Of a stretch of 64,000 bases of DNA, positions 2,332-34,399 are shown piece after piece (the stretch's first letter is position 1; each line of letters opens with the position of its first letter). The DNA comes from a virus: IMG/VR virus record IMGVR_UViG_3300027816_000052, positions 126,480 through 190,479 of that record; one strand, 5' to 3'. The position numbers were made by a program, and so were the translations under genes. The notes under the pieces were generated by a model. The model was not told the DNA's origin. It was given only the letters and a program-made list of their open reading frames with translations, and ran no database searches.

Positions 2332-3909
2332 ATGGAATTTTCTTTTTTCACAACAGATAATAAATCGGGTTATAAAACAAGAGAAGGTTGGTTTTCTAAA
2401 AATCATCCAGAAGTTTATGATGAAATTATTAGTTATTCTTCTAAAATAGATTTAAACCTTTCTTTCAAAGAAAAAATTTGGTTTTATTTTAACCAATTAT
2501 CTGAAAGACCAAAATGTGTAACATGTTCTAAAGAACTTAAATTTAGAGAACGATTCGATAATCCATACGGAGAATTTTGTTCATTAATTTGTATTAATAC
2601 AAATAAAGATGAAATGCTTAAACGACAAAAAAATACCTTCAATGAAAAGTATGGAATTGATTTTTATCCTCAACACCAAGACTTTGTAAAGAAACAAAAA
2701 CAAACAAAATTAGAACGTTATGGTGATGAAAATTTTGTTAATGCTGAAAAAATGCTAAAAACAAAATTATTAAAATATGGTAGAGAAAATATTAGTAACT
2801 CTAAAAAATATAAAGAAACATGTATTAAAAAATACGGTATAGATAATTTTGCAAAAACAACTGAATTTAAAAACAAAATTCATCAAAAATATAGAGATTT
2901 ATATCCAAATTATAATATAATCAATATTGATGGTACACAATTAACTGTTTTTTGTGAAAAATGTGGTGATAATTATGAAATTCATAAACAAGTTTTTTAT
3001 GAAAGAATTCGTGATAACAATATTGTCTGCACAAATTGTAATAAACTTGGTCAATGTTTCATTTCAAGCAAGGAACAAGAAATTAATGATTTTGTAAGAA
3101 GTTTAAATATTGAAACAATTCAAACATTTAAAACAAAAGACAAAACTGAAATCGACATTTTTGTACCATCAAAAAACTTAGGGATTGAGTTAAATGGTGT
3201 TTATTGGCACAACGAACTCTTTAAAGATAAGAATTTTCATTTAAGCAAAACAAAAAGTGCTGAAAATGATGGAATTGAATTGCTTCACATATTTGAGGAT
3301 GAATGGAATGGTAAAAAAGAAATTGTTAAATCTATAATTAAAAATAGATTAGGATTAGTTGATGAAAAAATCTATGCTAGAAAATGTTACATAAAAGAAT
3401 TAACCTCAAAGGTTACTAGTGATTTTTTAAATGAAAATCATATTCAAGGTGAAACTAAATCATTAGTAAAATTAGGTTTATTTAATGGTGAAAAATTAGT
3501 TTCAATTATGACCTTTTCAAAAGGTAGAATTATAATGGGTGGAAAAGACGATGAATGGGAGTTGGTTAGATTTTGTAATATTTTAAATACAAATGTTATC
3601 GGAGCGGCATCAAAATTATTAAATTATTTTATAAAAAACTATAATCCAAAGAAAATTGTGTCTTATTCAGATATTAGACTTTTTAATGGTAGTTTATATG
3701 AAAAAATAGGATTTACAAGAATATCACAATCACCACCAAGTTATTGGTATGTTATTAATGGTATTAGGCATTATCGTTTTAATTTTAGGAAATCCATTTT
3801 AATTAAAGAAGGTTTTGATTCAAATAAAACAGAACATCAAATAATGTTAGATAGGAGTATCTATAGAATTTATGACTGTGGTGCGATAAGATGGGAATTA
3901 AACTATTGA
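2332..3909 (+). CDS. Free-standing homing endonuclease, Vsr-like (EDxHD) type
   Basis: A 525-residue protein. The N-terminal 60% has a Cys4-like zinc site (CVTC ... C-x3-C near residues 63-88) and repeated 'KYGxxNxxxxxxxK' units around residues 105-190, the kind of DNA-binding repeats found in phage homing enzymes. A second CxxC pair follows (FCEKCG ... CTNC). The nuclease core, roughly residues 245-335, reads 'SSKEQEINDFVRSL ... EIDIFVPSKNLGIELNGVYWH ... HIFEDEW', matching the Vsr-like EDxHD fold exemplified by I-Bth0305I, with the acidic residues and His in place. It is inserted between tail tube and hub genes. It probably spreads its own locus and has no structural role. Confidence 0.8.
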   Translation: MEFSFFTTDNKSGYKTREGWFSKNHPEVYDEIISYSSKIDLNLSFKEKIWFYFNQLSERPKCVTCSKELKFRERFDNPYGEFCSLICINTNKDEMLKRQKNTFNEKYGIDFYPQHQDFVKKQKQTKLERYGDENFVNAEKMLKTKLLKYGRENISNSKKYKETCIKKYGIDNFAKTTEFKNKIHQKYRDLYPNYNIINIDGTQLTVFCEKCGDNYEIHKQVFYERIRDNNIVCTNCNKLGQCFISSKEQEINDFVRSLNIETIQTFKTKDKTEIDIFVPSKNLGIELNGVYWHNELFKDKNFHLSKTKSAENDGIELLHIFEDEWNGKKEIVKSIIKNRLGLVDEKIYARKCYIKELTSKVTSDFLNENHIQGETKSLVKLGLFNGEKLVSIMTFSKGRIIMGGKDDEWELVRFCNILNTNVIGAASKLLNYFIKNYNPKKIVSYSDIRLFNGSLYEKIGFTRISQSPPSYWYVINGIRHYRFNFRKSILIKEGFDSNKTEHQIMLDRSIYRIYDCGAIRWELNY

Positions 3910-4875: not shown

Positions 4876-7071
4876 ATGGCAAGTCAAGATGATTTACTAA
4901 AAAGAATAGATGAGTTAGAAGAAGAAGTTGAAGTTCTTAAAACAAGATTACAACGCTCAGAAAGAAAAGCATCATTTGGTCGTTTAGGTGATGTAGGTCA
5001 AGATACTTCAAATCCATTTGAAGCTATTTCTTTAGGTATTAATAAAATTGCAGAAGGATTTATTAACTTAGATAAAATTACTTCAGGTGTTTTTGTCGAT
5101 ATTAGAAATGCGGCAACAAATGCTGCTGCTGAATTTGGCACTGGGTTAAAAAATTATGAAAGTATTAGTCAGGAAATTGCAAAATCAATACCAGATTTAA
5201 CTAGACTTGGGTTTGAAGTATCACAAATTGGTGGTATGCAGGAAAAATTCACAGAAAAGATTCAAACAAATGTTGTTTTAAGTTCTGATGCATTAAAAAA
5301 TATTGGTGTTTTAGATAAACTTGGGGCTAATGGCGCTGCTATAGCTGCAAGTTTTAGAGATTCAGCACAATCTGTTTCTGGTATGATTGATGAATTGGAA
5401 GTTGCTGGTCAAGTTGCTGGTGATTATGGTGTTAATGCTAGTAAGATTTTTGCGGATATTGAAAAAACAATGCAAACAACGAACCAATATAGGTTTGAAA
5501 ATGGTGTTGAAGGTATTTCAAGAATGGCGGCACAGACAGCGATTATGGGAATTAGTTTTGAGAAAGTTGTTGAATTTGCGGATAGCGTAATGAACCCACA
5601 AGGTGCGATTGATGCTGTTGCAGCATTCCAAAGATTGGGCGTTACTGTTAGTGGATTACAAGATCCTTTTAAACTTATGTATATGGCTCAAAGTGATATG
5701 GAAGGTTTAACGGAGGAAATTGGTAAATCTGTTAGTAATTTAGGTACATTTAATAGAGAAACAGGTAAATTAGAAATTCCACCATCGGCTAGAATGCAGT
5801 TGAAAGAAATGGGAGACATTTTAAAACTTGGACCTGAACAAATGAATAAAATGGTAAGCCAGCAAGCTAAATTTAATGCAATGGCTGGCGATTTTGAAGG
5901 TCTTGGTGTCTCGGAAGAAGATAGAATGATGATTTCAAATTTAGCTGAGTTTAATAAAGAAACACAACAGTTCGAAGTAAAAGTTGGTGGTGAAACAAAA
6001 GCAGTAACATCATTAAGTGATGAAGATATTAAAATATTACAACAAAGACCGGAATCTTTAGAAGAAGCGGCATTTCAGCAACTTGATTACGTGAGTTCTA
6101 TAAATAACAATGTTGCTGCAATGTTAAAAACTCCCGGAGCAGCGGTTGCTGCGACAAAAGCTCAGTTAGATACTGAGCGATTAGCTAGGGGAATGTTTGA
6201 GTCGGGCGGGGAAGTTATTACAAAAGCATTTAAAGATGCTAAAATTAGAGAAGAAGTTGATAGATTTACAAAAGAATTTGGCGGGTCATTAGATGATGTT
6301 GTAAATGCATTAAAATCTGGTAATGTGGAAGAAATTAAAAAAGTGTTCGGAAATCTTTCTTCTATTGGAGAAATTGGGTTTGAAGATGCCTTTAATAGAT
6401 TCCAAAGTAGTTTTAGCGAAGGATTATCCAAAATACCTGAAAATTTAAGCGAAGTGTTAGGTGATAAAAATATTTATATGGGACTAAGTGGTGTTATAAA
6501 GGAGGTTGTTAATGAATTTGGTGCTAAAATTAAAGAAACGTTTAATACTTCTATTAACGAAACAACACAATCCCCAATACCAAATCAACCATCCCCCCAA
6601 GCAGGAATAACACAAGCAGCAGAAAATCAAATACAAAGTGTTGGAGTAACTGGGTCACAAGCAACCCCCTCTAGTGAAGTTCCCGCTGAAGATTTCGTAA
6701 TTAGAACATTACCAGAAGATACAATAAAAGTTGTCGGTGGAACAAATCTCCCCCCCGGTGGTGCAGATATAACAAATATTCTAAATAATCAAACAAATAA
6801 TACTCAAGCATTAACCTCAGTACAACCTGTTTTAAACAGAGATTTAGCAAACTTAGAAACACCAAGAACCGCTGAAAATAATAGGATTGAAGAAAAGGAA
6901 TTAAGAGTAAAATTTGACCCATTTATTGTTAAATTAGAAGGTGATGGAAAATCAATAGAGATGGCGTTACAAGATAATGTTGTTAGAGATAAAATAATCG
7001 ACATGGTTGGTAAAGCTATGACATCTGACTACAACACAATGGGTAGACCAATATTAGGTGGTCGTGCATAA
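4876..7071 (+). CDS. Tape measure protein
   Basis: A 731-residue protein with an N-terminal coiled coil (residues about 5-32, heptads of Leu and Glu/Lys) and then a long helical, Ala/Gly/Ile/Met-rich body with repeated amphipathic segments. Composition and position after the hub assembly gene fit a tail-length ruler that runs through the tube lumen, like T4 gp29 (590 aa). Residues about 555-640 are a Pro/Gln/Thr/Asn-rich linker (e.g. NNQTNNTQ). The C-terminus (VKFDPFIVKLEGDGKSIEM) is a small compact domain that could anchor to the hub. No lytic domain is obvious. Function inferred from architecture and order. Confidence 0.7.
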   Translation: MASQDDLLKRIDELEEEVEVLKTRLQRSERKASFGRLGDVGQDTSNPFEAISLGINKIAEGFINLDKITSGVFVDIRNAATNAAAEFGTGLKNYESISQEIAKSIPDLTRLGFEVSQIGGMQEKFTEKIQTNVVLSSDALKNIGVLDKLGANGAAIAASFRDSAQSVSGMIDELEVAGQVAGDYGVNASKIFADIEKTMQTTNQYRFENGVEGISRMAAQTAIMGISFEKVVEFADSVMNPQGAIDAVAAFQRLGVTVSGLQDPFKLMYMAQSDMEGLTEEIGKSVSNLGTFNRETGKLEIPPSARMQLKEMGDILKLGPEQMNKMVSQQAKFNAMAGDFEGLGVSEEDRMMISNLAEFNKETQQFEVKVGGETKAVTSLSDEDIKILQQRPESLEEAAFQQLDYVSSINNNVAAMLKTPGAAVAATKAQLDTERLARGMFESGGEVITKAFKDAKIREEVDRFTKEFGGSLDDVVNALKSGNVEEIKKVFGNLSSIGEIGFEDAFNRFQSSFSEGLSKIPENLSEVLGDKNIYMGLSGVIKEVVNEFGAKIKETFNTSINETTQSPIPNQPSPQAGITQAAENQIQSVGVTGSQATPSSEVPAEDFVIRTLPEDTIKVVGGTNLPPGGADITNILNNQTNNTQALTSVQPVLNRDLANLETPRTAENNRIEEKELRVKFDPFIVKLEGDGKSIEMALQDNVVRDKIIDMVGKAMTSDYNTMGRPILGGRA

Positions 7072-25593: not shown

Positions 25594-25615
25594 AAAAAGT
25601 GGTGATTATTAATCT
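25594..25615. repeat. 22-bp direct repeat, right copy
   Basis: Identical to 25062-25083. It overlaps the end of the LRR gene on the minus strand. Confidence 0.8.
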
Positions 25616-26367
25616 CTACTAATTCTATATTTTTCTTCATATTTCGCAACCAATTCATCATTATCTTTTAATGGTGTTTCACGAATATAAATTATCCCAT
25701 TAACATAAAGATTATCCCCTAAGGATTTAATTGGTGTTCCATTTAACCACAAATCTCCCCCAACACGAAGATTATCCGGTAAGGATTGAATTGGTGTTTC
25801 AGTTAAATCCAACCTTCCCTCAACATGAAGATTATCCGGTAAGGATTGAATTGGTGTTCCTCGTAAATACAAACTTCCCCCAACATGAAGATTATCCGGT
25901 AAGGATTGAATTTGCGTTCCTTCTAAATCCAAATTTCCCTTAACGTCAAGATTATCCGGTAAGGATTGAATTGGTGTTCCATTTAACCACAAACTTCCCC
26001 CAACACGAAGATTATCCGGTAAGGATTGAATTTGTGTTCTTTGTAAATACAAACTTCCCCCAACACGAAGATTATCCGGTAAGGATTTAAGATTTTTGCA
26101 TCCATATAAATTCAAATATCCCTCAACATGAAGATTATCCGGTAAGGATTGAATTTGTGTTTTTTCTAAATCCAAACCCCCATTAACAACAATCTCATCA
26201 TATTTGTTATTAAGATGTTTAACAAATCTTTCACCTGATGATGATGTTATAAAAGATGCAAATGCTCCCGGAGAAAATGTAAAACTTCTCTTTTCTTCCT
26301 CCTGTTCAAAAAGAACTTGTTTAATTATCCTATATAAATCTGATTCTGTTAATTTAATCTTTTTCAT
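25609..26367 (-). CDS. LPX-type leucine-rich repeat protein with targeting N-terminus (copy 2)
   Basis: 252 residues from the ATG at 26367. The longer frame to 26382 includes the promoter-like element. Residues 1-21 (MKKIKLTESDLYRIIKQVLFE) match the other two LRR genes and end in L-F-E. A linker that differs from the other copies follows, then about eight 20-residue repeats of the form SLPDNLxVGGxLxLxxTPIQ. The repeats are encoded by 60-bp DNA units that are highly similar, so copy number probably changes by recombination. LPX-type LRR surfaces bind proteins. The shared N-terminus and variable ligand-binding array suggest a family of delivered or virion-associated binding proteins. Molecular target unknown. 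Confidence 0.7.
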   Translation of the reverse strand: MKKIKLTESDLYRIIKQVLFEQEEEKRSFTFSPGAFASFITSSSGERFVKHLNNKYDEIVVNGGLDLEKTQIQSLPDNLHVEGYLNLYGCKNLKSLPDNLRVGGSLYLQRTQIQSLPDNLRVGGSLWLNGTPIQSLPDNLDVKGNLDLEGTQIQSLPDNLHVGGSLYLRGTPIQSLPDNLHVEGRLDLTETPIQSLPDNLRVGGDLWLNGTPIKSLGDNLYVNGIIYIRETPLKDNDELVAKYEEKYRISRD

Positions 26368-26370
26368 AAC

Positions 26371-26378
26371 CATAAATA
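26371..26378 (-). promoter_or_regulatory. TATTTA-type element, 5 nt before ATG of LRR copy 2
   Basis: TATTTATG on the minus strand, with the hexamer ending 5 nt before the ATG at 26367. It lies in the left arm of an inverted repeat. Confidence 0.45.
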
Positions 26379-26424
26379 TCATTAAAAGTAAAAAGCACGT
26401 CTTTAATAAACAAGATTCATATGA

Positions 26425-28978: not shown

Positions 28979-31429
28979 ATGGGTAAAGATAAAAATTTCG
29001 AGTATCTCGGACAAACATTTCAGCTTCAATTGATTAACCAAATTATCATTGACAAAATATTCGGCTCATCAATTATTGACGTTATGGAAGTCTCTTATTT
29101 CGAGAATAAGTATTTTAAAATTGTTGTTCAATTTATTAAGGAACATTATGGAAAATATAATGAAATTCCTTCATTTACAACTTTAAAACAAATTATTAAA
29201 TCTGAGTTAGCACAGGATTTTCTTGTAAAGGTTGCAATTGATACCTTGGAATCAATAAAAAATGTGTCAACTGACGGTGCTGAGTTTGTACAAGAAAAAG
29301 CTTTAAAGTTTTGTAAACAACAAGAACTGAAAAAAGTAATGACTAAAGCACAAAAAATTATCGATGGTGGTGAATTTGAAAATTATGACCAAGTTGAATC
29401 TTTGGTTAGGAACGCACTTCAGGTTGGTGAATTGGATAAGGGTCAGATAGATGTTTTTGACGATACTGAGGGCGTTTTAAGTGAGGATTTCAGACATCCG
29501 ATTGCGATGGGTATTAAGGGTATTGATAAGCTCTTAAAGGGTGGTTTAGCGAGGGGTGAAATTGGTGTTATTCTCGCCCCGACAGGGGTGGGCAAAGCCC
29601 AAAATGTTAGTGAACCAATTTTAACACCAACAGGTTGGACCGAAATAGGAAATATTAAACTTGGTGATAAAATAATTGGTTCCGATGGTAATGAACAATA
29701 TGTGATTGGCGTTTATCCGCAAGGTCAACGTCCAATTTATAAAATTGAATTTACTGATGATACACATACTTTTTGTGATGCAGAACATTTATGGTATGTT
29801 AATACATTAAACATGCGTACAAGAAAAACACGCATAAAAAATGTGAATAACTATGCTCCGAATTATGGGTATAAAGTGATTAAAACTAGCGATATGTTAG
29901 TTGATATAAAAAAACGAGGTAGATATAATTATAGACTACCTATTGTTAATCCTATTAATTTTAACGAAAAAGATATATTAATTAATCCTTATTTATTGGG
30001 TATTTTATTGGGGGATGGTTATTTATCTGCAAAAGATAGTATTACTTTAAGTACTAAAGATGATGAAATATTTGATAATATTTCTAATTTAAATCTACAC
30101 ACATCATTTTCTGAATACCATAGGGACACTAAAACAATTAAAGTTGTTCGCATTAAAAATGTTATTAAACCTCATTTAACTCATTATGGTTTACTTGGTA
30201 TGAAATCTGACCAAAAGTTTATACCGAAAGATTATATTTTTAATTCAGTAAATAATAGACTTGAATTATTGAGAGGATTAATGGATACTGATGGTTATGC
30301 GGATAAAAGAGGTTGTTGTCAATTTACAACTGTTTCAGAACAATTAGCAAAAGATGTTAGAGAAATTGTTCTTTCTTTAGGTGGTACAGCTAAAATTAAA
30401 ACAAAAATACCTAAATATAAGTATAAAGGTGAGGTAAAGGATGGTAAAATGGCTTATACTGTAACAATATCGTTTGCAAATAATATTGTTCCGTTTAAGT
30501 TGTTAAGAAAAGTAAATAGGTTCGTAAAAAGAAAAAAATATATTGAACAAAAATATATTAAATCAATAAACTATTCTCACGATGAAGAAGCTGTTTGCAT
30601 AAAAGTATCAAATCCTGATGAATTATATGTTACTAGAGATTATGTGTTAACACATAATACAACCGTAATGACAAAAATTGCAAATCACGCATATAATTTG
30701 GGTTTCAATGTCCTTCAAATCTTCTTTGAAGACAATCCAAAAATCATTCAGCGCAAGCATTTTACGATGTGGACCGGAATTAAACCCGATGATTTGACCG
30801 CAAATAAGGAAGAAGTTTTGGAAACGGTTAAAGAGTTGAGAAGTACCTTACCCAATAAATTGATTCTAAAGAAGTTACCTTCAGAATCATTAACCATGTC
30901 AAACATTAAAAATCAGGTAAGAAAAATAATTTCTGAGGGCGTTAAGATTGATTTAATTTGCTTGGATTATATCGATTGTGTATTACCAGAAAAATTCAAT
31001 GGTGATGAATGGAAGGGTGAGGGTTCGGTTATCAGAGCATTTGAAGCAATGTGTCATGAATTGGATATTGTTGGATGGACCGCGACCCAAGGTAATCGAT
31101 CCAGTATTTCAGCAGATGTTGTAACAACTGACCAAATGGGTGGTAGCATTAAAAAAGCACAAGTTGGTCACGTTATCATATCAATTGCTAAATCTCTTGA
31201 ACAAAAAGACCAAAAACTTGCGACAATTGCAATTACAAAATCAAGAATTGGTTCTGATGGTGTGGTGTTTGCAAACTGCAAATTTGACAATGAAATGCTT
31301 ATTATTGATACAGAGGAATCAAAAACATTATTAGGTCATGAAAAAGAGGTTGAAGAAATTAATGAAATGAATGCAAAAAAACGATTAGGTGAATTACAAT
31401 CTAATAAAAAAAGAACAACAATAAATTAA
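28979..31429 (+). CDS. 41: Replicative DNA helicase (T4 gp41/DnaB family) with intein
   Basis: An 816-residue precursor. After removing a 354-residue intein the mature helicase is 462 residues, matching T4 gp41 (475). The extein N-domain is helical (primase-interacting). The Walker A motif 'APTGVGK-TT' is interrupted by the intein between Lys and Thr. Walker B is in 'IDLICLDYIDCV', followed by 'WTATQGNRSS' (the H/Q-like region) and an arginine-finger region in 'TKSRIGSDG'. The hexamer unwinds DNA at the fork in the 5'-3' direction and recruits primase. Because the intein splits the ATP-binding loop, splicing is needed for activity. Confidence 0.9.
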   Translation: MGKDKNFEYLGQTFQLQLINQIIIDKIFGSSIIDVMEVSYFENKYFKIVVQFIKEHYGKYNEIPSFTTLKQIIKSELAQDFLVKVAIDTLESIKNVSTDGAEFVQEKALKFCKQQELKKVMTKAQKIIDGGEFENYDQVESLVRNALQVGELDKGQIDVFDDTEGVLSEDFRHPIAMGIKGIDKLLKGGLARGEIGVILAPTGVGKAQNVSEPILTPTGWTEIGNIKLGDKIIGSDGNEQYVIGVYPQGQRPIYKIEFTDDTHTFCDAEHLWYVNTLNMRTRKTRIKNVNNYAPNYGYKVIKTSDMLVDIKKRGRYNYRLPIVNPINFNEKDILINPYLLGILLGDGYLSAKDSITLSTKDDEIFDNISNLNLHTSFSEYHRDTKTIKVVRIKNVIKPHLTHYGLLGMKSDQKFIPKDYIFNSVNNRLELLRGLMDTDGYADKRGCCQFTTVSEQLAKDVREIVLSLGGTAKIKTKIPKYKYKGEVKDGKMAYTVTISFANNIVPFKLLRKVNRFVKRKKYIEQKYIKSINYSHDEEAVCIKVSNPDELYVTRDYVLTHNTTVMTKIANHAYNLGFNVLQIFFEDNPKIIQRKHFTMWTGIKPDDLTANKEEVLETVKELRSTLPNKLILKKLPSESLTMSNIKNQVRKIISEGVKIDLICLDYIDCVLPEKFNGDEWKGEGSVIRAFEAMCHELDIVGWTATQGNRSSISADVVTTDQMGGSIKKAQVGHVIISIAKSLEQKDQKLATIAITKSRIGSDGVVFANCKFDNEMLIIDTEESKTLLGHEKEVEEINEMNAKKRLGELQSNKKRTTIN
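29597..30658 (+). mobile_element. Class 3-like intein with LAGLIDADG endonuclease, in helicase Walker A
   Basis: 354 residues (207-560 of the precursor), beginning Ala-Gln-Asn and ending Thr-His-Asn, followed by Thr as the +1 residue. Features match class 3 inteins: Ala at position 1, Trp two residues after the block-B His ('AEHLWYV'), Cys in block F ('EAVCIKV'), and Thr before the terminal His-Asn ('VLTHN'). These form the WCT triad in which the block-F Cys is the first nucleophile. Two LAGLIDADG motifs are present, 'LLGILLGDGYL' and 'LRGLMDTDGYA', so the homing endonuclease is probably active. The insertion point in the P-loop is a recurrent DnaB-type intein site. Confidence 0.85.
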
Positions 31430-31447
31430 TAAAAAATATATAATAAA

Positions 31448-34399
31448 ATGGACAGTAAATTTAAAGAAATTACCCCGCCTTGGGGTGAAATTGGTTATAT
31501 AACATTTAAGAGAACATACGCTAGAAGATTAAAAGAAGATGACCCTTTGTCAAAAACTGAAGAGTTTTGGCAAGTAATTGAAAGAGAATTAGAGGCATCA
31601 GAAAAACAATTAAATGTTGGGTTTACAGAAGACGAGAAAAAAAGATATGCGGAATTACGCATGAACCTTAAGTTTTCAACTGCTGGTAGATTTATGTGGC
31701 AATTGGGGACTAAAACGGTTGATAGATTAGGTTTACCATCTTTACAAAACTGTGCTTTTACCGTTGTTAATTCACCAATAAGACCATTTACTTGGTGTTT
31801 TGAAATGTTAATGTTAGGTAGCGGTGTTGGTTACAATATTCAAAAACATAATGTGTATCAATTACCAAAGTTGAAAAATAAAATTAAAATTGAAAGAAAA
31901 GACACAAATGATGCGGATTTTATTGTTCCGGATAGCAGAGAAGGGTGGGTTAAACTTTTGGGTAAAGTACTTAAAGCACATTTTTATGGTGGTGAGGGTT
32001 TTACATATTCTACTGTTTGTATTAGGTCTAAAGGTGCGGTAATAAAAGGGTTCGGGGGAACCGCATCTGGACCCGAAGATTTATGTTGGGGTATAAGTGA
32101 AATTAACAAAATATTAAATTCACGCTCAAATAAAAAATTAAGACCTATTGATTGTCTTGATATTATGAATATTATCGGTAATATTGTGGTCGCCGGAAAC
32201 GTCCGAAGATCGGCACAAATCGCAATTGGTGATTTTGATGATATTGAATTTTTAAAAGCAAAAAGATGGGATTTATATAAAATTCCAAACTGGAGAGCGA
32301 TGAGTAATAATTCAATCGTTGCGCCAGAAAATATTGATGATTTACCTAAAGAATTTTGGGATACTTATAACCAAGGCGAACCATATGGATTGATTAATTT
32401 AGAATTAGCTAGAAGTGTTGGTAGAACTGGAGAAAATCAATATCCGGACCCTGAAGTTGAAGGATTTAATCCTTGCAAACCCTTAAATTCGCTTATTTTA
32501 ACAAATAAGGGATATATTACGTTTGAACAAGCACTTAATGAGGATGAGCTTACCGTTTTAGGAATTGATGGTCAGTGGAAAAAAGCAACAAAACCATTTA
32601 AAACAGGGGAAAATAGGGTTGTGAATAGAATTTTATTGTCTAATGGTTCTTATCTATATGGTACCGATAATCATCTTCATATGGATAGAGATGGTAATTG
32701 GGTTAGAATGGATAAATTAGAAATTGGTAATCAATTAAAGTGGGAAAATAAACCAATATATACGTCTTTTGATATAGATAATGAAGAAGATTATAAATTA
32801 GGTACTTTCGCGGGATGGGTTCAGGGTGATGGATGGTATAGTAAACGATTAGATAATGTTGGTTATACGGTCGGTATGTGTTTTGGTATTAATGAAATGG
32901 ATGTCGTTTCTTATTTTGAACAAATGTTAAATGTAAAGACAAAACCTCATGAACAAAAACCAAACACATGTTTATATTTTTCATCGCATAGAAATGATTT
33001 ATCAAAATCATTATCTGATATTGGAATGCCAACTAATAAAATGGACTTAAAATGGTTGTATGGAAAATCTAAATCATTTAAACTTGGTTTTATTCGAGCT
33101 ATTTTCACCGCTGACGGCTCAGTTAGAAAAATGAATAATGTTGAACTTTATTCTGTTAATAGAAATATTTTGGAAGTTGTTTCGACAATTTTAAACGAAT
33201 TTGGTATTCATAATACAATAACAACACATAATAATGGTCGAGTTTATGTTGGAAAAGATGGAAAAATGAGAAATAATTCCACATGTTTTAAAATTAATGT
33301 ATATGCTGGTCAATTTAAACAGATTGGGTTTTTATCTAAATTTAAAAATGAGTTATTAGAAAAACATGAAATTAAACCGATTTATAGATACAAAGATTAT
33401 GTTACAGTAATCGATATCGAACCAGAATATTCGGTAGAGGATGTTTATGATATAACTGTCAATGATGAAACACACGCATTTTATGATACTGGGGTTGTAA
33501 CACATAATTGTGCAGAACAATCATTAGCTAATTTTGAGACCTGTTGTCTAGCTGAAGTTTATCTACCAAACATTGAAACATATGATCAATTATTGGAAGC
33601 CTTAACATATGCTTATAGAATGAATAAACACTCATTGGCATTAAAATGTTCTTTAAAAGAAACTGAAGAAATTGTTAATCGAAATATGAGAATGGGTATT
33701 GGAATGACCGGTGTTTTACAGGCAACCGAAGAACAAAGGTCTTGGTTAAGTTCTGCATATGAATGGTTAAGAAAATATGATGTGGAATATTCAAAAAAAC
33801 ATGGTTTTCCAAATAGTATAAAACTTACCACTATTAAGCCATCCGGTACACTTTCGCTTTTAGCAGGAGTAACACCGGGAGTACATCCAAATCCTGCTGG
33901 ACCGTATTATATTAGAAGAATTAGAATTTCATCACAATCTACATTAATTGATGTATGTAGGAAACATGGATTTCCAATAGAATACCAAAGAAATTATGAT
34001 GGTACTGAGGACAAAACCACAATGGTAATATCTTTCCCATGTAAACTTCCGGATGAAACACCTGTAGCATCAAATTATACTTGGAAAGAACAATTAGATA
34101 TGGTAAGAAGAATGCAAGCTGAATGGTCGGATAATTCGGTTAGCTGCACTGTTTATTATAAAAAAGAAGATATTGATGATATTAAAAATTACTTACGTGA
34201 ACATTTTAAACATGAAATAAAAACTGTATCATTCCTTCTATATTATGGACATGGTTTTGATCAAGCACCATATGAAACAATAACAAAAGAACAATATGAT
34301 GATATGATAAAAAATATTAAACAAATAACATCTATTGAGGTTAAAGAAGATGAGTTTACAATTATGGATTGTGATACCGGTGCTTGTCCAATAAAATAA
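31448..34399 (+). CDS. nrdJ: Adenosylcobalamin-dependent ribonucleoside-triphosphate reductase (class II) with intein
   Basis: A 983-residue precursor; 638 residues after intein removal. It resembles the monomeric Lactobacillus leichmannii type: 'GRFMWQLGTKTVDRLGLPSLQNCAF' holds the first redox Cys, and the spliced 'NP-CAEQSL' holds the thiyl-radical Cys and catalytic Glu. A Cys eleven residues further (ETCC) matches the partner redox Cys of that enzyme. The C-terminal tail 'MDCDTGACPIK' carries the Cys pair that shuttles electrons from thioredoxin. The enzyme makes dNTPs from NTPs using vitamin B12 coenzyme with no oxygen requirement, feeding phage replication. Effector-site loops appear present, but I cannot confirm allosteric sites. 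Confidence 0.9.
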   Translation: MDSKFKEITPPWGEIGYITFKRTYARRLKEDDPLSKTEEFWQVIERELEASEKQLNVGFTEDEKKRYAELRMNLKFSTAGRFMWQLGTKTVDRLGLPSLQNCAFTVVNSPIRPFTWCFEMLMLGSGVGYNIQKHNVYQLPKLKNKIKIERKDTNDADFIVPDSREGWVKLLGKVLKAHFYGGEGFTYSTVCIRSKGAVIKGFGGTASGPEDLCWGISEINKILNSRSNKKLRPIDCLDIMNIIGNIVVAGNVRRSAQIAIGDFDDIEFLKAKRWDLYKIPNWRAMSNNSIVAPENIDDLPKEFWDTYNQGEPYGLINLELARSVGRTGENQYPDPEVEGFNPCKPLNSLILTNKGYITFEQALNEDELTVLGIDGQWKKATKPFKTGENRVVNRILLSNGSYLYGTDNHLHMDRDGNWVRMDKLEIGNQLKWENKPIYTSFDIDNEEDYKLGTFAGWVQGDGWYSKRLDNVGYTVGMCFGINEMDVVSYFEQMLNVKTKPHEQKPNTCLYFSSHRNDLSKSLSDIGMPTNKMDLKWLYGKSKSFKLGFIRAIFTADGSVRKMNNVELYSVNRNILEVVSTILNEFGIHNTITTHNNGRVYVGKDGKMRNNSTCFKINVYAGQFKQIGFLSKFKNELLEKHEIKPIYRYKDYVTVIDIEPEYSVEDVYDITVNDETHAFYDTGVVTHNCAEQSLANFETCCLAEVYLPNIETYDQLLEALTYAYRMNKHSLALKCSLKETEEIVNRNMRMGIGMTGVLQATEEQRSWLSSAYEWLRKYDVEYSKKHGFPNSIKLTTIKPSGTLSLLAGVTPGVHPNPAGPYYIRRIRISSQSTLIDVCRKHGFPIEYQRNYDGTEDKTTMVISFPCKLPDETPVASNYTWKEQLDMVRRMQAEWSDNSVSCTVYYKKEDIDDIKNYLREHFKHEIKTVSFLLYYGHGFDQAPYETITKEQYDDMIKNIKQITSIEVKEDEFTIMDCDTGACPIK
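32474..33508 (+). mobile_element. Class 1 intein with LAGLIDADG endonuclease, in RNR active site
   Basis: 345 residues (343-687 of the precursor). It begins Cys-Lys-Pro and ends Val-Val-Thr-His-Asn, with Cys as the +1 residue. Block B is in 'LYGTDNHLHM' and block F in 'EDVYDITVNDETHAFYDTGVVTHN' as two overlapping halves. The LAGLIDADG motifs are 'TFAGWVQGDGWYS' and 'FIRAIFTADGSVR'. The +1 Cys is the catalytic radical Cys of the reductase, so precise splicing is essential. This NP/C site is a known hot spot for inteins in ribonucleotide reductases. Confidence 0.9.

Follow-up and report, generated by a model that had tools for sequence, protein, structure and literature searches.

The 64,000-nucleotide stretch analysed here (the window) belongs to a 256,029-bp IMG/VR virus record and carries an 816-aa open reading frame. 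Its outer 462 residues match gp41/DnaB-like replicative helicases (PHROG 19, E=9e-50) and, under the respective cut-offs, NCBIfam phage_DnaB (E=3e-8) and Pfam DnaB_C. Within this frame lies one open 354-aa segment without a stop codon (A1-Q-N-V...V-L-T-H-N on translation), which splits the Walker A motif APTGVGK|TT between Lys and Thr; an identical protein is present on three IMG/VR contigs. The inserted segment, an intein, is precisely absent from many close helicase homologues: of 67 empty loci, 66 have an uninterrupted APTGVGK[S/T]T that neither gains nor loses a residue, and the remaining one lacks this region. Because these intein-less relatives show nothing added or lost, both junctions are exact. 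A first-pass annotation had placed an intein in the helicase P-loop, and translation together with these relatives shows its coordinates to be right to the base (Table 1).

Table 1 Features of the helicase locus and of the other inteins and ORFs discussed (window positions unless another sequence is named).
Feature	Position	Strand	Remarks
Helicase ORF	28979-31429		
N-extein, 206 aa, gp41/DnaB-like replicative helicase, ends in APTGVGK	28979-29596	+	PHROG 19
Intein, class 3 signature and LAGLIDADG homing endonuclease domain	29597-30658	+	
Ala1 (GCC), no N-terminal nucleophile	29597-29599	+	A/S/D/E in relatives
Block B His64 (B:10) Leu Trp66 (B:12), Asp61 before	29786-29794	+	
LAGLIDADG motif 1, LLGILLGDG, catalytic Asp140	29993-30019	+	
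LAGLIDADG motif 2, LRGLMDTDG, catalytic Asp232	30269-30295	+	
Cys334 (block F:4), predicted branch-point nucleophile	30596-30598	+	Invariant at site and in 186/187 homologues
Thr352 (G:5)-His353-Asn354, C-terminal splice end	30650-30658	+	
C-extein, first residue Thr+1 = Walker A Thr of GVGKT	30659-31429	+	
Class 1 intein (Cys1, THN|C) at NP|CAEQ of adenosylcobalamin-dependent RNR	32474-33508		Right after helicase gene
Second class 3 intein, in PhoH P-loop, GTGK|A...VTHN|S	L082 1501-2580 = G000 79146-80225	-	Same phage genome, outside window
Free-standing endonuclease-like ORF	2332-3906		
Leucine-rich-like repeat run	25609-26382	-	Neighbours on opposite strand
gp41 with two inteins, L004	L004 2955-4560		
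gp41 with two inteins, L009	L009 about 6120-6550		

The intein begins with Ala, as the first-pass annotation had read it, and thus lacks the Cys, Ser or Thr that opens class 1 inteins. Block B reads D61-A-E-H64-L-W66, block F V-C334-I-K-V and block G V-L-T352-H-N|T. The WCT triplet named by that annotation is complete (Trp66 at B:12, Cys334 at F:4 and Thr352 at G:5), with the same residues in the aligned structures 6RIX and 6BS8, and Thr+1, the block B His64 (B:10), the penultimate His353 and the final Asn354 are all present. Class 3 inteins are defined by Cys F:4 as the first nucleophile, the mutation of which blocks splicing, and their +1 residue is usually Ser or Thr (PMC5222942, PMC7891396, PMC3196547). 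By sequence, the intein is matched best in the PDB by MchDnaB1 (6RIX, E=7.6e-12) and MsmDnaB1 (6BS8), both of class 3; the 6RIX match and the Pfam LAGLIDADG_3 match (E=6.6e-12) both lie far beyond chance. An AlphaFold2 model built with 67 homologues (mean pLDDT 92.3, pTM 0.90) predicts a HINT fold that resembles the solved class 3 structures, the N part of the splicing domain fitting 6BS8 and 6RIX at 1.3-1.4 A over 69 columns with 36-38% identity.

In order to place the intein phylogenetically, a 28-taxon tree was built from ~130 splicing-domain columns after removal of the four signature columns, so that the class label could not drive the grouping. A single branch of this tree separates the class 3 inteins from the rest (support 78/97; 96% of bootstrap trees), and the window intein groups with gp41 inteins of uncultured phages (support 99/96). 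An AU test rejects a placement beside KlbA of class 2 (p=0.0009), so the phylogenetic outcome that the first-pass annotation had named as refuting its reading did not arise; for a placement beside the class 1 intein in the adjacent RNR gene, the AU p is 0.039. Strict class 3 monophyly is weak in bootstraps of a 57-taxon FastTree analysis, found in 13 of 60 with the signature columns and 6 of 60 without them. Two inteins are unstable neighbours there and fall inside the class 3 group or close to it: gp41-1, of class 1, and the PhoH intein of Lactococcus phage LW81, which has Cys1. Since only ~130 columns align, the unity of class 3 receives moderate support in the first tree and low support in the second, and the deep branching order is tentative. 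Of the sequences in the trees, KlbA was checked against PDB 2JMZ and a stretch of gp41-1 against 6QAZ.

Residue 1 varies among 27 inteins at the same helicase site (Ala in 18, Ser in 6, Asp in 2 and Glu in 1), while His64, Trp66, Cys334, Thr352, His353 and Asn354 are invariant in all of them; the six Ser1 inteins thus retain the complete WCT set. Two inteins that are 96.4% identical differ in this residue (Ala1, GCA, in L007 and Ser1, TCA, in L009). Both AGY and TCN codons encode Ser1 at this site, which makes repeated origins of it probable. Neither Asp nor Glu can serve as the usual class 1 nucleophile, and a free residue 1 combined with an invariant Cys334 is the pattern predicted by the class 3 mechanism. 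The pattern extends to a wider set of 128 homologues in which the GK| and T/S+1 junctions are unambiguous: eleven amino acids occur at residue 1, and Cys F:4 is present in every sequence. In a count over 187 homologues, Cys F:4 is found in 186. The search patterns used on the viral collection held no WCT residue, and one genome-scan pattern included the THN end, so the Thr count is biased there and the Cys and Trp counts are not. Together, the signature, the tree, the aligned class 3 structures and this residue 1 pattern give good support to the class 3 reading, and we hold with high confidence that the intein is real and correctly assigned.

Some inteins in the wider collection combine features of two classes. 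L253 and L259 carry Cys1 together with the full WCT set, and in the PhoH intein of LW81 (L091), Cys1 and Cys F:4 are accompanied by Ile at B:12; these are possible class 1/class 3 intermediates. The terminase intein of Vibrio phage VCO139 (L100) has an apparent Ala1, Cys F:4 and THN|T, with Asn replacing the class 3 Trp (HIN).

Both LAGLIDADG motifs are intact, as the earlier reading had it, and their Asp140 and Asp232 are conserved in 27 of 27 inteins at the site. In pairs with enough differences (synonymous sites are saturated in more distant ones), dN/dS is 0.14-0.49 for the endonuclease region and 0.03-0.26 for the splicing region; these low values indicate that both are under purifying selection. 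Comparison with L004, limited to codons upstream of the second, fractured intein in its C-extein, reveals synonymous differences in 44 of 206 N-extein codons, 9 of 354 intein codons and 1 of the next 80 codons (Fisher p=7e-15), beyond which they climb again. This distribution resembles that left by homing, with intein transfer and co-conversion of the downstream flank, although general recombination between phages could also have produced it. The reverse is seen between L191 and L192, whose exteins share 96.6% identity and whose inteins share 77.4%, which would fit a replacement of the intein. Two motifs with a catalytic Asp, intein-less alleles and a trace of transfer are the marks of a LAGLIDADG homing intein.

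Given this anatomy, class placement, empty site, conservation and recombination signature, the locus very probably holds a class 3 intein that is full-length and mobile and interrupts the P-loop of a gp41-type phage helicase; we infer its splicing and DNA cleavage from characterised class 3 inteins. By analogy with these, the Lys(-1)-Ala1 peptide bond would be attacked after translation by Cys334 to give an internal branched thioester, and the acyl group would then move to Thr+1. Cyclisation of Asn354 and an O-N shift would yield GVGKTT and restore Walker A. The LAGLIDADG domain would cut intein-less gp41 alleles at the P-loop codons, and repair would copy the intein in.

A KlbA-type class 2 intein also lacks Cys or Ser at position 1, but it is extremely unlikely that the window intein is one: class 2 has been described from KlbA only (PMC3196547) and the host protein here is a helicase, the KlbA intein is without the WCT set and the tree rejects their grouping, Cys F:4 is invariant at the helicase site, and in tested class 3 inteins Ser+1, or even Cys+1, was unable to start the reaction (PMC5222942). 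Loss of splicing, with the helicase inactivated or supplied from elsewhere, has a precedent in the class 3 pseudogene intein Arth_1007 (PMC3196547). We consider it very unlikely at this locus, where every catalytic residue is kept, splicing-domain dN/dS is low, the C-extein is still in frame and conserved, and the helicase is expected to be essential.

The intein might instead splice only under certain conditions and so regulate the helicase like a switch, a role that has been proposed for Msm DnaB1 in oxidative stress. It occupies the same P-loop position in a replicative helicase, its catalytic Cys would be open to oxidation, and Cys60 beside block B is conserved in the close family. This seems improbable, however, as the intein is missing from most relatives among the top matches, its conserved endonuclease is expected of a selfish element, and the partner Cys48 of Msm (RPCYVVEF) is Ile in the window intein (RPIYKIEF). 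A redox trap of the Msm DnaB1 type is therefore absent from the window intein and was rejected. We see a small chance that members with Ser1 or Cys1 can start splicing through residue 1 as well, as two-route inteins that would be living intermediates between class 1 and class 3; if so, they would be relevant to the question whether class 3 diverged from class 1 or is a product of convergence. For the window intein itself, mobile class 3 remains the preferred reading, and the near-identical Ala1 and Ser1 versions, with many empty alleles, form a good natural set for studying what part residue 1 plays when class 3 inteins splice and how inteins of the P-loop pass from phage to phage.

The same phage genome encodes a second class 3 intein, in PhoH. 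A recent copy within the genome was considered and rejected: the two inteins are only 41% identical and are therefore not recent duplicates. For the class 1 intein of the RNR gene, only one weak phage relative was found (25% identity). That RNR gene seems to have been exchanged, because the RNR encoded downstream of the helicase in the relatives L004, L014 and L185 is a different one (NPCCEI). Elsewhere in the window, a free-standing ORF matches PHROG homing/HNH endonuclease families (E=9e-118) and Pfam DUF7487, and a repeat run follows the pattern IQSLPDNLxVxGxLxL. In both L004 and L009, a single phage helicase contains two inteins of different class, one of them fractured: gp41 has a P-loop class 3 intein and a split class 1 intein at TATQGNR|SSIS. 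The split halves flank a 374-aa ORF with similarity to MTES_1575/DUF559 endonucleases in L004 and are almost adjacent in L009. A RecA-like protein of Salicola phage SCTP-2 (L101), annotated as hypothetical, contains two class 1 inteins.

Class 3 inteins had been described in the first-pass annotation as a minority, well studied mostly in actinobacterial phages. They are in fact neither rare nor derived mainly from such phages, 1,701 having been catalogued by 2020, 82.5% of them with LAGLIDADG motifs (PMC7891396). Full-length WCT relatives were found here in genomes of many phyla and in phages infecting Mycobacterium, Vibrio, Pseudomonas, Enterococcus, Proteus, Shewanella, Bacteroides and Parabacteroides. 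The Lys/Thr site of the P-loop is described as a classic intein position (PMC5050341); insertion after GK is found in 129 of 160 homologues, and Bacteroidota genomes as well as phages infecting Vibrio, Pseudomonas, Enterococcus and Bacteroides have WCT inteins at GK|T/S. Nine Bacteroidota loci have the complete WCT set (four Hymenobacter, Sediminibacterium, a Porphyromonadaceae, two Bacteroidaceae and Millionella). Phages and genomes of the Bacteroidota, the host group suggested in the first-pass annotation, thus already have class 3 inteins (L086, L087, L106, L129, L142, L150, L152). The suggested Bacteroidota host itself finds no support in the helicase relatives or the promoter pattern: the nearest cultured helicases share <30% identity with the extein and belong to phages whose hosts span several phyla, promoters of the Bacteroidota type show no significant enrichment (9 found against 5.6 expected), and ten other ORFs had no PHROG match, which gave no help on the host either. 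Class 3 inteins are common in phages and bacteria of many kinds, and the window intein is therefore a sound addition, not a surprise, which leaves the picture of the class unchanged. It adds a full-length class 3 family with an intact endonuclease at the P-loop position of the endonuclease-free mycobacterial DnaB mini-inteins, and its main value lies in the natural Ala1/Ser1 series at one site.

The mycobacterial class 3 DnaB inteins (Msm DnaB1, Mle DnaB and Mch DnaB1; 6BS8, 6RIX), which include the closest PDB sequences, share Ala1, the WCT set, a DxxH block B and insertion in the helicase P-loop at GVGK|S/T with the window intein. Msm DnaB1 lies in the P-loop of DnaB and has the DxxH block B (PMC6195587), and its native flanks, FGVGK|...|ST (PMC5222942), are nearly those of the window intein, TGVGK and TTVMT. 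Unlike the window intein, which has a full LAGLIDADG domain and Thr+1, they are mini-inteins without an endonuclease and with Ser+1, and Msm DnaB1 has the Cys48 redox partner that the window intein lacks. Other phage class 3 inteins lie in the helicase of Mycobacterium phage Pinkcreek, gp41 of Vibrio phages 1.244.A and GR28A, the helicase of Enterococcus phage Riverwalk, and in Bacteroides phage BS-TP3 and Pseudomonas phage phiHQ, all of them full-length WCT inteins with a LAGLIDADG domain, inserted after GK and 33-39% identical to the window intein over the whole length; they differ in belonging to different phages and, in some cases, to other P-loop proteins. Together with uncultured gp41 inteins that are ~58-69% identical, the window family makes up a separate clade. 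The split intein gp41-1 also comes from a gp41 helicase gene and has a splicing domain near class 3 in sequence, but it has Cys1, Asp at F:4 and Phe at B:12, is split, follows the class 1 mechanism and has a different insertion sequence. PI-SceI (VMA), the best whole-chain fold match of the model (TM 0.71), has the same HINT and LAGLIDADG architecture but is a eukaryotic class 1 intein with ~18% identity.
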